Shown: piece by piece, positions 46,192-60,494 of the stretch
Position numbering within the stretch: the first letter of the stretch is position 1
How the letters are laid out: each line of letters starts with the position of its first letter
DNA from: an uncultured Flavobacteriaceae bacterium
GTDB taxonomy: Bacteria; Bacteroidota; Bacteroidia; Flavobacteriales; Flavobacteriaceae
Assembly: GCA_905181615.1 (NCBI GenBank)
Contig: CAJIYH010000006.1
Location: 1-64,000, forward strand
Length of the DNA: 64,000 nucleotides
Reading direction: 5' to 3'
Translations under genes and position numbers: made by a program
Notes under the pieces: model-generated
The model's database searches: none
Told to the model about the DNA's origin: nothing
What the model saw: only the letters and a program-made list of their open reading frames with translations

Positions 46192-46263
46192 AGCCAGCGA
46201 GCAGATTTGAACTGCCGACCTCTTCCTTACCAAGGAAACGCTCTACCCCTGAGCTACACCGGC
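46192..46263 (-). tRNA. tRNA-Thr (GGT)
   Basis: Minus strand GCCGGTGTAGCTCAGGGGTAGAGCGTTTCCTTGGTAAGGAAGAGGTCGGCAGTTCAAATCTGCTCGCTGGCT. Confidence 0.95.
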
Positions 46264-46271
46264 AAAAAGAG

Positions 46272-46344
46272 AGCGAGAGACCGGGTTCGAACCGGCGACA
46301 TTCAGCTTGGAAGGCTGACGCTCTACCAACTGAGCTACTCTCGC
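46272..46344 (-). tRNA. tRNA-Gly (TCC)
   Basis: Minus strand GCGAGAGTAGCTCAGTTGGTAGAGCGTCAGCCTTCCAAGCTGAATGTCGCCGGTTCGAACCCGGTCTCTCGCT. Confidence 0.95.
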
Positions 46345-46373
46345 TTTTTAAAACCTTATAAAGGTTAGGGTTG

Positions 46374-46455
<82 letters not shown>

Positions 46456-46524
46456 AGAATATTTCAATAAACAAGAATGATGTTCTTGAATGAATCGACA
46501 ACGTATTCGATTCTTTTTTCTTTG

Positions 46525-46598
46525 AGCCGATGGAGGGACTCGAACCCACGACCTGCTGATTACAAATCAGCTGCTCTAGCCAGCTGAGCTACATCGGC
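46525..46598 (-). tRNA. tRNA-Thr (TGT)
   Basis: Minus strand GCCGATGTAGCTCAGCTGGCTAGAGCAGCTGATTTGTAATCAGCAGGTCGTGGGTTCGAGTCCCTCCATCGGCT. Confidence 0.95.
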
Positions 46599-53912: not shown

Positions 53913-53996
53913 ATGAAAGCTGAACGACCAAAATGTGGCTGTGGAAACACACAAAATCCTGAAGGTTTTTGTGATGGATCACACCTAAACAAATAA
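53913..53996 (+). CDS. 27-aa CDGSH-type iron-sulfur mini protein (not in ORF track)
   Basis: ATG...TAA: MKAERPKCGCGNTQNPEGFCDGSHLNK; C-x-C...P-x-x-x-C-D-G-S-H. Confidence 0.7.
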   Translation: MKAERPKCGCGNTQNPEGFCDGSHLNK

Positions 53997-54009: not shown

Positions 54010-54042
54010 TTTGGAATAAAAATATTTTTTCAACTATATTTG
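54010..54042 (+). promoter_or_regulatory. Candidate Bacteroidetes-type promoter for the trp operon
   Basis: TTTG (54010-54013), 21-nt spacer, TATATTTG (54035-54042) matching TAnnTTTG. Confidence 0.5.
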
Positions 54043-54047
54043 ACCCA

Positions 54048-54089
54048 ATGAAACGATTAACAAATTTTACAGCTTGGTGGAACGAATAA
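54048..54089 (+). CDS. trpL: trp operon leader peptide
   Basis: MKRLTNFTAWWNE with tandem TGG TGG codons, 80 nt before trpE. Confidence 0.85.
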   Translation: MKRLTNFTAWWNE

Positions 54090-54156
54090 ATTAATTTATT
54101 CGTGATCAACGCTATTTCAATATATCAAAGGCTTGTCATCACGACAAGCCTTTTTT
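54082..54156 (+). promoter_or_regulatory. trp attenuator: pause hairpin, candidate antiterminator and intrinsic terminator
   Basis: ACGAATAAA-TTAA-TTTATTCGT (54082-54103); TCGTGAT (54100-54106) complementary to ATCACGA (54138-54144); terminator GGCTTGTC-ATCAC-GACAAGCC-TTTTTT (54130-54156). Confidence 0.85.
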
Positions 54157-54168
54157 AATTTAAGACCT

Positions 54169-55569
54169 ATGGAAACATTCAAATTACATTCACAGCACAA
54201 AAAAATACTGGCAGATACCCTGACTCCAGTTAGTGCGTATCTAAAGATTAGAGATGTTTTTCCGCACAGCTTACTTCTAGAAAGTAGTGACTACCATGCA
54301 AACAACAAAAACTTTTCCTACATCTGCTGCAACCCTATTGCTTCTATGGAACTTAAAAACAAACACCTCACTATTAAATATCCAGATGGGACGTCCTCAT
54401 CAGAACAACTTACAAGTGGTGCTAATATTCCTGAGCGCATCCATCAATTTTCACAACAATTCAAAAGCGAAGACTATCCTTTTAAATTCATAAGCAACGG
54501 TATTTTTGGTTACATCGCTCATGATGCAGTTGAGCATTTCGAAAACTTAGAACTGAACCAGAAAAAAGAAGGACTCGATATTCCAGAAATATTTTATGCG
54601 GTATATCAAAACATCATTGCAATCAGCTTATTCAACCACGAAGCACATTTATTTTCTCATGTCTTCGATGGGGAGCATAATGTTGAAGACATCGAACAAT
54701 TACTTCAAGCTAAAAACAGCACCCGTTTTGCTTTCGAAAAAGTTGGCGAAAAAACATCCAACCTTACGGACTCAGATTTCATTGATTTTGTAAATAAAGG
54801 CAAGCAGCATTGTTACCGTGGTGATGTTTTTCAACTGGTACTTTCCCGAAGATTTTCACAGAAGTTCAAAGGGGATGAATTTAATGTTTACAGAACCTTA
54901 AGATCCATCAACCCCTCGCCTTACCTCTTCTTTTTTGACTATGGCGACTTTAAGATTTTTGGAAGCTCTCCCGAAGCTCAGATTATTGTAGAAGAGAGCA
55001 AAGCCGAAATACATCCGATTGCCGGAACGTTCAAAAGAACAGGCAACGATGCACAGGACAAACAAGCTGCATTGGAATTGGCAAAAGATCCAAAAGAAAA
55101 TAGCGAACACGTGATGCTGGTCGACTTAGCTCGAAACGATTTAAGTAGAAACGGCTCTAATGTAGTGGTAGAAAAAAATAGAGAAATTCAGTTTTTCTCC
55201 CATGTAATTCATTTGGTATCTAAAGTAACCTGTACCATGAAAAAAGCTGCAAAAACATTTCAGGTAGTTGCCGACACCTTTCCTGCTGGAACTTTGAGCG
55301 GAGCTCCAAAACACAATGCATTAAAGCTAATTGATCGATACGAAAAAACGAAACGTAATTTTTATGGGGGTGCTATCGGGTATATGGATTTTAAAGGAAA
55401 CTTTAATCACGCAATAATCATTCGATCGTTCTTGTCAAAAAATCAAGAATTACATTATCAGGCTGGGGCTGGAATAGTTGCAGACTCGGTTCCCAAAAAC
55501 GAATTACAAGAAGTATATAACAAATTAGGGGCTTTAGACAAAGCCTTAATCTTAGCCGAAGACGTATAA
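54169..55569 (+). CDS. trpE: Anthranilate synthase component I
   Basis: FQLVLSRRFSQKFKGDEFNVYRTLRSINPSPYLFFFDYGDFKIFGSSPEAQIIVE...PIAGTFKRTG; ORF-track start at 54133 lies inside the terminator. Confidence 0.96.
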   Translation: METFKLHSQHKKILADTLTPVSAYLKIRDVFPHSLLLESSDYHANNKNFSYICCNPIASMELKNKHLTIKYPDGTSSSEQLTSGANIPERIHQFSQQFKSEDYPFKFISNGIFGYIAHDAVEHFENLELNQKKEGLDIPEIFYAVYQNIIAISLFNHEAHLFSHVFDGEHNVEDIEQLLQAKNSTRFAFEKVGEKTSNLTDSDFIDFVNKGKQHCYRGDVFQLVLSRRFSQKFKGDEFNVYRTLRSINPSPYLFFFDYGDFKIFGSSPEAQIIVEESKAEIHPIAGTFKRTGNDAQDKQAALELAKDPKENSEHVMLVDLARNDLSRNGSNVVVEKNREIQFFSHVIHLVSKVTCTMKKAAKTFQVVADTFPAGTLSGAPKHNALKLIDRYEKTKRNFYGGAIGYMDFKGNFNHAIIIRSFLSKNQELHYQAGAGIVADSVPKNELQEVYNKLGALDKALILAEDV

Positions 55570-55570
55570 T

Positions 55571-56134
55571 ATGAAACGAATTTTTCTCATTGATAATTAC
55601 GATTCTTTCACCTATAATTTGGTGCATTATCTAGAAGAGTTGAACTGTGAAGTAATCGTAAAAAGAAACGACCAGTTTGACTTAGACGAACTCGAGGCAT
55701 ACGATTACATCGTGCTTTCTCCAGGCCCAGGTATTCCAAACGAATCTGGATTATTAAAAGCGGCGATTGAACGCTACGCTCCTACCAAAAAAATTCTAGG
55801 CGTTTGTTTGGGACAGCAAGCAATTGCAGAGGTATTTGGCGCTACACTAATCAACTTAGACAAAGTATATCATGGAGTTGCAACTCCCATAAACATTGTT
55901 CAAGAGGATGCACTTTTTAAAGGTCTTCCAAAAACATTCGAAGTTGGTCGTTACCATTCTTGGGTAGTTAAAACCCCACTACCCGATCAGCTTGTTGCCA
56001 CTTCCTTTGACAACGAGGGTCAGTTAATGTCTTTGCGGCATAAAGAGTATAATGTATGTGCGGTTCAATACCATCCGGAGTCTGTACTTACACCCGATGG
56101 GAAAAAAATAATCGAAAACTGGATTAATTCATAG
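55571..56134 (+). CDS. trpG: Anthranilate synthase component II (glutamine amidotransferase)
   Basis: FLIDNYDSFTYNLVHYLEEL; ILGVCLGQQAIAEVFGA; VQYHPESVLT. Confidence 0.96.
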   Translation: MKRIFLIDNYDSFTYNLVHYLEELNCEVIVKRNDQFDLDELEAYDYIVLSPGPGIPNESGLLKAAIERYAPTKKILGVCLGQQAIAEVFGATLINLDKVYHGVATPINIVQEDALFKGLPKTFEVGRYHSWVVKTPLPDQLVATSFDNEGQLMSLRHKEYNVCAVQYHPESVLTPDGKKIIENWINS

Positions 56135-56137
56135 GCT

Positions 56138-57130
56138 ATGAAAAAGATACTCAACCGTTTAATTCGTCACGAGCAACTTTCTAAAGAAGAGGCGCGCAAA
56201 ATGCTTATTAATATCGCTGACGATAAGTACAACAGCTGTCAAATTGCATCGTTCCTTACAGTATTCATGATGCGCAGTATTAGCTTAGATGAGCTAGAAG
56301 GATTCAGAGCAGCCTTGTTAGAACTTTGCCTCGCGGTTGACCTCAGCGAATTCGAAACCATTGACTTGTGTGGAACTGGAGGAGACGAAAAAGACACCTT
56401 CAATATCTCTACACTTTCCTCTTTTATAACCGCTGGAGCAGGGGTGAAAGTTGCCAAGCATGGAAACTACGGTGTTTCTTCGGGCTGTGGTTCTAGTAAT
56501 GTATTGGAACATTTAGGGATTCGTTTTTCTAACGAAGAAGATTTTTTAAAACGCTGCATTGATCAGGCTGGGATTTGCGTTTTACATGCCCCACTGTTTC
56601 ACCCAGCAATGAAAAACGTTGCACCTGTGCGCAAAGATCTGGGTGTTAAAACATTTTTTAACATGCTCGGGCCTTTGGTTAATCCGGCGTTTCCGAAAAA
56701 CCAATTGACGGGTGTTTTTAATTTAGAATTGGCTCGTTTGTACCACTATCTTTTTCAAAAAACAGAACAAAACGTTACCGTTTTATACGACCTAAAAGGG
56801 TACGACGAAATATCCTTAACAGGAACAACCAAAGCATTGAGTAGAAACAGCGAACGGGTTCTTACTCCTGCAGATTTTGGAGTAAAACAACTCCAAGCTA
56901 CTCAGATTTCTGGTGGATCAAGTCTGGCTTCTTCTGCAGAAATTTTTATGAATATAATTCAAAACAAAGGAACCGAAGCACAACAAAATGTAGTTTGTGC
57001 AAATGCCGGAATGGCACTTGCAACTGCTTTAAACTTAAGTCCAATCGAAGGCTTCGAGAAAGCAAAAGAATCCCTTCTTAGCGGCAAGGCTTTTATTGCT
57101 TTATCAACACTTCAAAATCTGAGCAAGTAA
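56138..57130 (+). CDS. trpD: Anthranilate phosphoribosyltransferase
   Basis: DLCGTGGDEKDTFNISTLSSFITAGAGVKVAKHGNYGVSSGCGSSNVLEHLG. Confidence 0.96.
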   Translation: MKKILNRLIRHEQLSKEEARKMLINIADDKYNSCQIASFLTVFMMRSISLDELEGFRAALLELCLAVDLSEFETIDLCGTGGDEKDTFNISTLSSFITAGAGVKVAKHGNYGVSSGCGSSNVLEHLGIRFSNEEDFLKRCIDQAGICVLHAPLFHPAMKNVAPVRKDLGVKTFFNMLGPLVNPAFPKNQLTGVFNLELARLYHYLFQKTEQNVTVLYDLKGYDEISLTGTTKALSRNSERVLTPADFGVKQLQATQISGGSSLASSAEIFMNIIQNKGTEAQQNVVCANAGMALATALNLSPIEGFEKAKESLLSGKAFIALSTLQNLSK

Positions 57131-57921
57131 TGACTATTTTAGATAAAATAATCGCAGACAAAAAAATTGAAGTTGCTTTACGCAAACAACTGTTTCCATT
57201 TAAATACTGGGAAGCCTCTCCTGTATTCGAAAGAACCACAAACTCCTTAGCTAAAGAACTCCGAGCGAGTAAATCGGGGATTATTGCAGAACACAAAAGA
57301 CGCTCTCCATCCAAGCAAAACATCAACAGCTCCCTTTCGGTAATCGATGTGGCAAAAGGATATGAAGACGCAGGCGTATGCGGCATGTCCGTTTTGACCG
57401 ATGGTAAGTATTTTGGTGGATCGCTAGAAGATTTAAACGTTGCTCGAGCAGTAACCAATTTTCCATTGCTCAGAAAAGATTTTATAATAAACGAATATCA
57501 ACTCATCGAAGCCAAAGCTCACGGTGCAGATGTCATTCTTCTGATCGCCTCCGTATTGACTCGCGAAGAAATAAAAAAGCTGTCAACTTTTGCTCAAAGT
57601 TTGGGACTCGAAGTTTTACTAGAAGTACATAACCGAGAAGAATTAGAAAAATCAATCATGCCTTCTTTGGATATTTTTGGAGTGAACAACCGCAACCTTA
57701 AAACATTTGAAGTAGACCTCAATACCAGCCGAACCTTAGTCGAAAAGATACCTACCGATTTCGTCAAAATATCAGAAAGCGGTATCAGCGATTCAGCTGC
57801 CATTTTAGATCTAAAAACCTATGGTTTTGAAGGGTTTTTGGTTGGCGAAAATTTCATGAAAACAAACAACCCGGGTGCAAGCGCTGCTGCATTCATTAAA
57901 GAAATTGAAGATGAAGCTTAA
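57130..57921 (+). CDS. trpC: Indole-3-glycerol phosphate synthase
   Basis: GIIAEHKRRSPSKQNI...FLVGENFMKTNNPG; overlaps trpD stop. Confidence 0.95.
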   Translation: MTILDKIIADKKIEVALRKQLFPFKYWEASPVFERTTNSLAKELRASKSGIIAEHKRRSPSKQNINSSLSVIDVAKGYEDAGVCGMSVLTDGKYFGGSLEDLNVARAVTNFPLLRKDFIINEYQLIEAKAHGADVILLIASVLTREEIKKLSTFAQSLGLEVLLEVHNREELEKSIMPSLDIFGVNNRNLKTFEVDLNTSRTLVEKIPTDFVKISESGISDSAAILDLKTYGFEGFLVGENFMKTNNPGASAAAFIKEIEDEA

Positions 57922-58528
57922 GGTTTGCGGCATGAGAACACCCGAAAACATCGAAGCTCTTGCAGCTTTGAATCCCGATTATATGGGCTTTATTTTTTGG
58001 GCGTCCTCTTCCCGTTTTGTAAATAAAATCACCCCTTTGTTGCCAAACAAAATAAAGAAAACTGGAGTTTTTGTTGATGCTACAATCGATTATATCGAAA
58101 CTATAATCAAAGAGCACAAACTACAGGCGGTGCAATTACATGGAAAAGAAGCTCCCGAATTTTGTGCTTACATCAAAACCTTAGACGTTGAAGTAATCAA
58201 AGCATTCAGCATGAAAGAGGCATTTGATTTTAAATCTTTAGAACCTTACGAAATTGCTTGTGACTTTTATTTATTCGACACCAAAGGAGAACTGCCGGGA
58301 GGAAATGGATATGGATTTGATTGGAGTATTTTAAAAAACTACCCCTCGGTAAAACCATTCTTTTTGAGCGGTGGAATTGGCAAAGAAGAAGTGTCCCAAA
58401 TTTTAGAATTAAGAAATACAGATTTACCCCTTTATGCAATTGATGTAAATAGTAAATTCGAAAGCGCACCTGGAGTAAAAAAAATAGATGAATTAGAACA
58501 ATTTAAAAATGAATTGTATGAACTATAA
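57911..58528 (+). CDS. trpF: Phosphoribosylanthranilate isomerase (start at 57911)
   Basis: [48 protein letters not shown]. Confidence 0.94.
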
Positions 58529-59699
58529 TGTAGATGAAAAAGGATATTACGGTGATTTTGGAGGAGCATTCATCCCCGAGATGTTATATCCTAATGTCGC
58601 TGAGCTTAAAGAAAATTACCTTAAAATAACGGCAGAACCTGAGTTCAAAAAAGAATTCGATGCCTTACTTAAAAATTATGTAGGAAGACCTACGCCCCTT
58701 TATTTCGCAAAACGCTTATCCAAAAAATACAACACCAAAATTTATCTCAAACGAGAAGATTTATGTCATACTGGAGCGCATAAAGTAAACAACACCATCG
58801 GTCAAATTCTATTGGCAAAACGCCTGGGTAAAAACCGAGTAATTGCCGAAACTGGAGCTGGACAACACGGTGTTGCAACTGCAACGGTTTGTGCTTTAAT
58901 GGGAATTGAGTGTATCGTATATATGGGAGCATTAGACATCAAGCGTCAAGCTCCGAATGTTGCTCGAATGAAAATGCTTGGGGCAGAAGTTAGACCTGCT
59001 CTCTCGGGAAGCAAAACCCTAAAAGATGCCACAAACGAGGCCATTCGGGACTGGATTAACAATCCCGTAGACACACACTACATCATTGGATCTGTAGTTG
59101 GACCACACCCCTACCCGGATATGGTTGCTCGTTTTCAATCGGTTATTAGTGAAGAAATAAAAATACAACTCCAAGAATTAGAAGGCCGCGACTATCCCGA
59201 TCATGTAATAGCTTGTGTTGGTGGTGGAAGTAACGCTGCTGGGTTATACTACCATTACCTAAACGACGAACGTGTAAACATCATTGCAGTAGAAGCTGCC
59301 GGAAAGGGAATTGATTCTGGTGAGAGTGCTGCTACTTCAGTTCTTGGAAAAGAAGGAATTATACACGGAAGTAAAACCTTGCTGATGCAAACCCCCGACG
59401 GTCAAATTACAGAACCCTATTCTATTTCGGCAGGACTAGATTACCCAGGCGTTGGACCCATGCATGCCCATTTGTTCAGAACCAAGAGAGCCGAATTTAT
59501 TTCTGTTCCCGACAAAGAAGCCATGGATTGGGGATTAACTCTTTCTCAAATGGAAGGAATTATTCCTGCCATAGAAACTGCCCATGCATTCGCAGCACTA
59601 GATGTCCGTAAATTTGGACCCGATGAAGTGGTGGTATTTAACTGCTCGGGGCGTGGAGACAAAGATTTAGAAACCTACATCGATTATTTTAAGTTGTAA
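58509..59699 (+). CDS. trpB: Tryptophan synthase beta chain
   Basis: [39 protein letters not shown]. Confidence 0.98.
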
Positions 59700-59723
59700 A
59701 AACAACAAGCAAGATTTTAGAAC

Positions 59724-60494
59724 ATGAAACAAAATAGAATAGACCTCAAATTCAAAGAAGACAAAAAACTATTGTCCATCTATTTTTCTGCTGGGTTCCC
59801 GAACCTAGAAGATACCGTACCAATTTTAAAAAACCTTCAAGCCTCGGGCGCAGATATGGTCGAAATTGGACTTCCTTTTTCCGACCCGCTTGCCGATGGA
59901 CCTACCATTCAAGAAAGCTCTACCAAGGCGCTTCAAAACGGAATGACCACTCAAAAACTCTTCGATCAGCTGCAAGGCATTCGCAAGCATATCGACATTC
60001 CTTTGGTGCTTATGGGCTATTTCAATCCGATGATGCAGTACGGAATACAGAAATTCTGTGAGCAGTGCGAAGCGATTGGCATTGATGGACTTATTATTCC
60101 TGACTTGCCCGTAGATGTGTATCACGAAGAATATAAAAACCTCTTCGAAAAACACGGACTCTACAATATGTTTTTGATTACCCCACAAACTTCAGATGAA
60201 CGCATCCGCTACATCGATGATGTTTCGAACGGATTCATTTATATGGTTTCTAGTGCCGCCGTTACAGGAGCGCAAGGCTCTTTTGGAGCAACCCAAGCGG
60301 ACTACTTTAAACGAGTTGCCAATATGAACCTAAAAACAGAAACAGTGGTTGGGTTTGGGATCAGCAATGCCGATACATACCAAGCTGCAACAGCCTATTC
60401 TAGGGGAGCAATTATTGGTTCTGCTTTTATTAAATTCCTTGAAAAAGATGGGGTTGATAACATCAAAGACTTTGTAGCCCAGATTAGGAAATAA
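59724..60494 (+). CDS. trpA: Tryptophan synthase alpha chain
   Basis: YFSAGFPNLEDTVPILKNLQASGADMVEIGLPFSDPLADGPTIQ. Confidence 0.98.
   Translation: MKQNRIDLKFKEDKKLLSIYFSAGFPNLEDTVPILKNLQASGADMVEIGLPFSDPLADGPTIQESSTKALQNGMTTQKLFDQLQGIRKHIDIPLVLMGYFNPMMQYGIQKFCEQCEAIGIDGLIIPDLPVDVYHEEYKNLFEKHGLYNMFLITPQTSDERIRYIDDVSNGFIYMVSSAAVTGAQGSFGATQADYFKRVANMNLKTETVVGFGISNADTYQAATAYSRGAIIGSAFIKFLEKDGVDNIKDFVAQIRK

Follow-up and report, generated by a model that had tools for sequence, protein, structure and literature searches.

A probable ribosome-mediated tryptophan attenuator, related to Bacteroid-trp, precedes trpEGDCFBA in an uncultured Flavobacteriaceae bacterium

Introduction

Is the trpEGDCFBA operon of an uncultured Flavobacteriaceae bacterium controlled by a leader that senses tryptophan through translation and, if so, does that leader belong to a catalogued family? 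The operon is complete in the window, by which is meant the whole 64,000-nucleotide stretch analysed here (contig CAJIYH010000006.1 of assembly GCA_905181615.1, positions 1 to 64,000), and spans positions 54169–60494, with its genes named by their best NCBIfam matches. Gene matches place trpE first (54169–55569). A sequence-only reading had proposed a textbook-style attenuator, with a nearly leaderless leader peptide, just upstream of trpE.

For Flavobacterium psychrophilum, a member of the same bacterial family, leader-peptide attenuation has been proposed ahead of amino-acid operons, including trp (PMC9723704, PMC6414381), and the passages of those papers that deal with it carry no base-level mechanism. 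Weinberg et al. (2010; PMC2864571) list the Bacteroid-trp motif (Rfam RF01692) in their main text as a table entry only. A base-level account of the Bacteroid-trp antiterminator was not found in the literature searched, supplements and subscription journals lying outside that search.

Results

A conserved leader with tandem tryptophan codons

The leader ORF, MKRLTNFTAWWNE, encodes 13 amino acids and lies on the + strand, like all the other features of the leader region and trpE. Direct reading of the sequence gives its limits (54048–54089; ATG at 54048–54050, TAA at 54087–54089) and bears out the TGG TGG pair at 54075–54080, the putative sensor. Conservation of this arrangement in relatives was a check on the earlier proposal, and it is found at both levels: WW or WWW is kept across the family, and the 13-codon leader with WW is conserved within the genus, where every member with a readable leader (16/16) retains WW-(N/S/T)-E together with both the hairpin and the terminator. 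The last Trp codon lies 18–19 nt from the downstream antiterminator strand (element 2, see below) in most relatives and 18–20 nt in the genus. In addition, trpE follows directly 3' of the leader in 148 of the 156 loci where both a leader and a terminator could be detected, at a median of 20 nt. In two loci from other genera of the family (L067 and L118) the WWW leader is apparently initiated at TTG rather than ATG. Elsewhere in the window, four tRNA genes recognised by Rfam cluster at 46192–46598 on the - strand.

A candidate promoter would place the start of transcription next to the leader ATG

Upstream of the leader, a candidate -7 box, TATATTTG (54035–54042), stands 5 nt from the ATG, and a candidate -33 box, TTTG (54010–54013), lies 21 nt further 5'; in the family profile TTTG sits about 19 nt 5' of TAnnTTTG. 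Of 131 loci, 127 have a TAnnTTTG element no more than 60 nt 5' of the leader, as against 6% in shuffled sequences. This spacing predicts a transcription start at about 54047, with a 1-nt UTR, and hence a leader mRNA that would be nearly leaderless. Passages on F. psychrophilum place its promoter box at -12 to -5 and put leaderless mRNAs at 5.5% (PMC9723704). A short cysteine-rich ORF, MKAERPKCGCGNTQNPEGFCDGSHLNK, which is CDGSH-like, occupies 53914–53996, directly 5' of the trp promoter.

Alternatively, transcription of the same attenuator could start at a promoter further 5' and give the leader a longer 5' UTR, which we regard as possible though rather unlikely. The box-to-ATG distance is 14–22 nt in many relatives and the start site here is a prediction, which favours the longer UTR; against it, the box and the first ATG are exactly 5 nt apart in each of the 16 genus members whose leader could be read, and likewise in 16 other loci (in L045 the first ATG was the point of measurement). 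The promoter spacing agrees with the near-leaderless start that had been suggested from sequence. A leaderless attenuator leader would be uncommon, yet by analogy it has a precedent in trpL of Sinorhizobium meliloti, where a 14-residue leader peptide is translated from an mRNA that starts at the ATG and serves trp attenuation (PMC7298713). That leader is alphaproteobacterial and is likened to the present one by description.

Two mutually exclusive structures downstream of the Trp codons

The leader stop codon is overlapped by a perfect 9-bp hairpin, ACGAATAAA-TTAA-TTTATTCGT (hairpin 1, or 1:2; 54082–54103), as had been described. In the genus its median z is about -6 against shuffles, and in two loci (L042 and L045) a change of the stop from TAA to TAG is matched by a change on the other arm of the hairpin. 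Hairpin 1 would sequester the 5' half of element 2, TCGTGAT (54100–54106), the putative 5' strand of the antiterminator, which reads TCGTGA in nearly all relatives with a TCACGAC terminator. The strong intrinsic terminator anticipated before trpE is also present, with corrected limits: its 11-bp stem runs from 54127 to 54153, not from 54130, and only the T run reaches 54156 (-15.6 kcal/mol). Element 2 is exactly complementary to ATCACGA (54138–54144), confirming the pairing that had been noticed, and its target comprises the terminator loop, ATCAC (54138–54142), and the first two bases of the 3' arm.

The antiterminator pairing covaries

Across the 156 loci the terminator reads TCACGAC over its loop and 3' arm in 119, with TCGTGA standing 5' of it in 114 of them. 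In a sequence-only alignment of 84 sequences, 88% of antiterminator cells are paired compared with 9–54% for slid registers, and four pairs show two-sided changes; the terminator is paired in 99%, with six such pairs. The remaining 37 loci, in which the target has changed, are informative: as a group they pair better with their own targets than with the targets of others (KS p 4e-6, kinship uncorrected). The shuffle controls for all of these comparisons leave some shared ancestry in. Clear compensations were identified in L104, L146, L169, L170, L181, L184 and L185, and by eye also in L145 and L189, examples being TTGTCGCAAT:ATTGCGACAA in L104, GAGAA:TTCTC in L169 and ATGTGGC:GCCACAT in L181. 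The antiterminator pairing is near-invariant, and it covaries at the positions that vary. Both alternative pairings are conserved in relatives, the antiterminator with compensatory changes, and a mutually exclusive terminator and antiterminator backed by covariation is one mark of a ribosome-mediated trp attenuator. In some relatives (L181, L185 and L145) the antiterminator is formed with the 5' arm and loop of the terminator, as in Escherichia coli, and not with the loop and 3' arm.

The pattern TCGTGA...TCACGA by itself proves nothing, since elsewhere in the genome it occurs about as often as the reversed control does. For nearly all relatives, folding predicts an antiterminator extended to 13 bp by pairing with the terminator 5' arm. 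It is not claimed here as selected, because in the genus a shuffled linker pairs almost equally well (z of linker pairing with the 5' arm, median -1.4 in the family and -0.6 in the window).

The unusual sequence conservation of the terminator and element 2 might point to a TRAP-like protein or a riboswitch-like small molecule that acts on the leader RNA and chooses the hairpin, the leader ORF being secondary. This conservation is accounted for by a single strand that takes part in two helices, the tandem Trp codons are kept at a fixed distance from element 2, and the Rfam scans matched no riboswitch family at the leader, so that such a regulator is very improbable. We give just as little credence to the terminator serving an upstream transcript or insulating trpE, with trp expression set elsewhere and an incidental leader ORF: a strong terminator does stand between the CDGSH-like ORF and trpE, but the promoter-like box, the WW leader and the covarying antiterminator all intervene between the upstream gene and that terminator, and their conservation extends over about 130 genera.

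Folding of the nascent RNA and a proposed mechanism

The timing of these structures was modelled by folding, with the stalled ribosome represented as a mask up to 54088 and the ribosome edges taken as assumptions. When the nascent RNA extends to 54144–54147, the antiterminator forms in the presence of the stalled ribosome (P 0.93–0.95), whereas hairpin 1 forms in its absence (P 0.81). Once 54150 or later has emerged, the terminator is favoured at equilibrium in all cases, even with a stalled ribosome, which implies that antitermination must be kinetic. The antiterminator would be the first to form, and would have to persist until the polymerase clears the U-tract.

Taken with the conserved WW leader, the two conserved pairings and the compensatory changes, the sequence and folding analyses make it very likely that the leader is a ribosome-mediated tryptophan attenuator of trpEGDCFBA, in which the start site, the stalling of the ribosome and the way control runs are as we infer them. 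In the proposed scheme RNA polymerase would start at about 54047, and a ribosome would engage the leader ORF very close to the 5' end of the RNA. If charged tRNA-Trp were scarce, the ribosome would stall at TGG TGG and cover the first arm of hairpin 1. Element 2, thus freed, would pair with ATCACGA as it emerges and keep the terminator open past the U-tract, so that trpEGDCFBA would be transcribed. With plentiful tryptophan the ribosome would reach the stop codon and depart, hairpin 1 would lock up element 2, and the terminator would fold and stop transcription 5' of trpE. Attenuation is, as a mechanism for this leader, inferred but strongly supported, and the earlier interpretation stands on this point.

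The leader is a divergent relative of Bacteroid-trp

At the gathering threshold, an Rfam scan gave no match at the leader. In a permissive scan, the best match was Bacteroid-trp (RF01692), aligned end to end at 36.4 bits (E 0.011) and so short of the gathering cut-off of 49 bits. Ten members of the genus score 37–47 bits, and it is because the genus falls under the cut-off that the threshold scan is silent. A model based on 52 relatives from other genera (R1) was applied to the 2.2-Mb genome from which the window comes, and the leader was its best place (56.7 bits, E 2e-7 on a rough calibration). On this match the leader is called homologous to Bacteroid-trp, though it lies under the formal threshold of Rfam. 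Homology to accepted members is joined by a position 5' of trp genes in the Bacteroidetes and by a short ORF with Trp codons. The leader shares with Bacteroid-trp its TGG-rich ORF, the AAAGGCUUGUC terminator arm, its placement before trp genes and the phylum; it differs in having WW instead of WWW, a stop codon 12–14 nt before element 2 and a strong 1:2 hairpin. The RF01692 model ends in the 5' arm of the terminator, which leaves the pairing of element 2 with the loop outside it. By these sequence comparisons the leader is a divergent relative of the catalogued family, or borders on it, and the system is not new.

Within the Flavobacteriaceae, RF01692 matches 131 of 150 genomes, nearly always directly 5' of trpE, and the matched loci that were read have a WW or WWW leader. 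About half of the 19 genomes that lack a match also lack a convincing trpE. Nine clear trpE genes from genomes missed by the model were found by protein alone, and so form a set independent of it: six (L186–L190 and L192) have a WW or WWW leader 110–140 nt upstream, L194 has a weaker candidate, L193 has none, and the trpE of L191 starts at the very edge of a contig, so that no DNA precedes it. Among genomes sampled from the order, the model matches 25 of 115, with more than half of the matches again in the Flavobacteriaceae, and matches also turn up in a few more families of the class. One genome from another family of the order carries tandem RF01692 matches 140 bases apart (L164 and L175; G168:C26:75-332), possibly a doubled attenuator.

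The genus departs from the family in the position of its stop codon

A TCGTGA or TTGTGA element is recognisable in 129 loci, and these were classified by the position of the leader stop. It falls in or just after element 2 in 90 of them and 3–9 nt before it in 22; in both layouts a terminating ribosome could cover element 2. In the other 17 it lies at least 11 nt before, and 15 of the 17 belong to the genus of this bacterium, where the distance is 12–14 nt and a strong 1:2 hairpin is present. A ribosome with a stop codon in its A site shields about 12 nt past the first base of the stop. At 12–14 nt, element 2 would lie at or beyond the ribosome edge, and masking it would then require a strong hairpin 1. 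The median energy of hairpin 1 is -7.3 kcal/mol in the class with the distant stop and -2.8 and -1.0 kcal/mol in the others (Mann-Whitney p 3e-9), a contrast that is dominated by one clade and so amounts to effectively one evolutionary event. A first hairpin of this strength is a trait of the genus and not a family rule. We lean, by a little, towards the view that one family uses two designs for masking the antiterminator: the ribosome itself resting on element 2 in most members, and a strong hairpin 1, on a nearly leaderless mRNA, in this genus, where it would have taken over as the stop shifted 5'.

Discussion

Like the trp attenuator of E. coli (RF00513), the leader combines tandem Trp codons with a 1:2 hairpin, a terminator and an antiterminator. 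In E. coli it is the 5' arm of the terminator that the antiterminator occupies, whereas that of the window uses the loop and the start of the 3' arm, and the leader here lacks a Shine-Dalgarno sequence. RF00513 gave no match at the leader at E-values up to 10, and the leader is not counted in that family. Overall, sequence comparison presents a system that is ordinary in kind. It is a probable attenuator of a divergent Bacteroid-trp type, well supported by comparison with relatives, and the genus adds two modest features of its own: the early stop with its strong 1:2 hairpin, and the promoter box close to the ATG.

The analysis supplies a base-level model, with covariation, for a leader family that has hitherto been mainly a computed motif, and the model accounts for the strong sequence conservation of the terminator stem and loop. 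If the reading of two masking designs is true, hairpin 1 should make the untranslated default of the genus OFF, and the family would offer a natural comparison of the two designs. The leader would also provide a case for testing the coupling of transcription and translation in a phylum without Shine-Dalgarno sequences.
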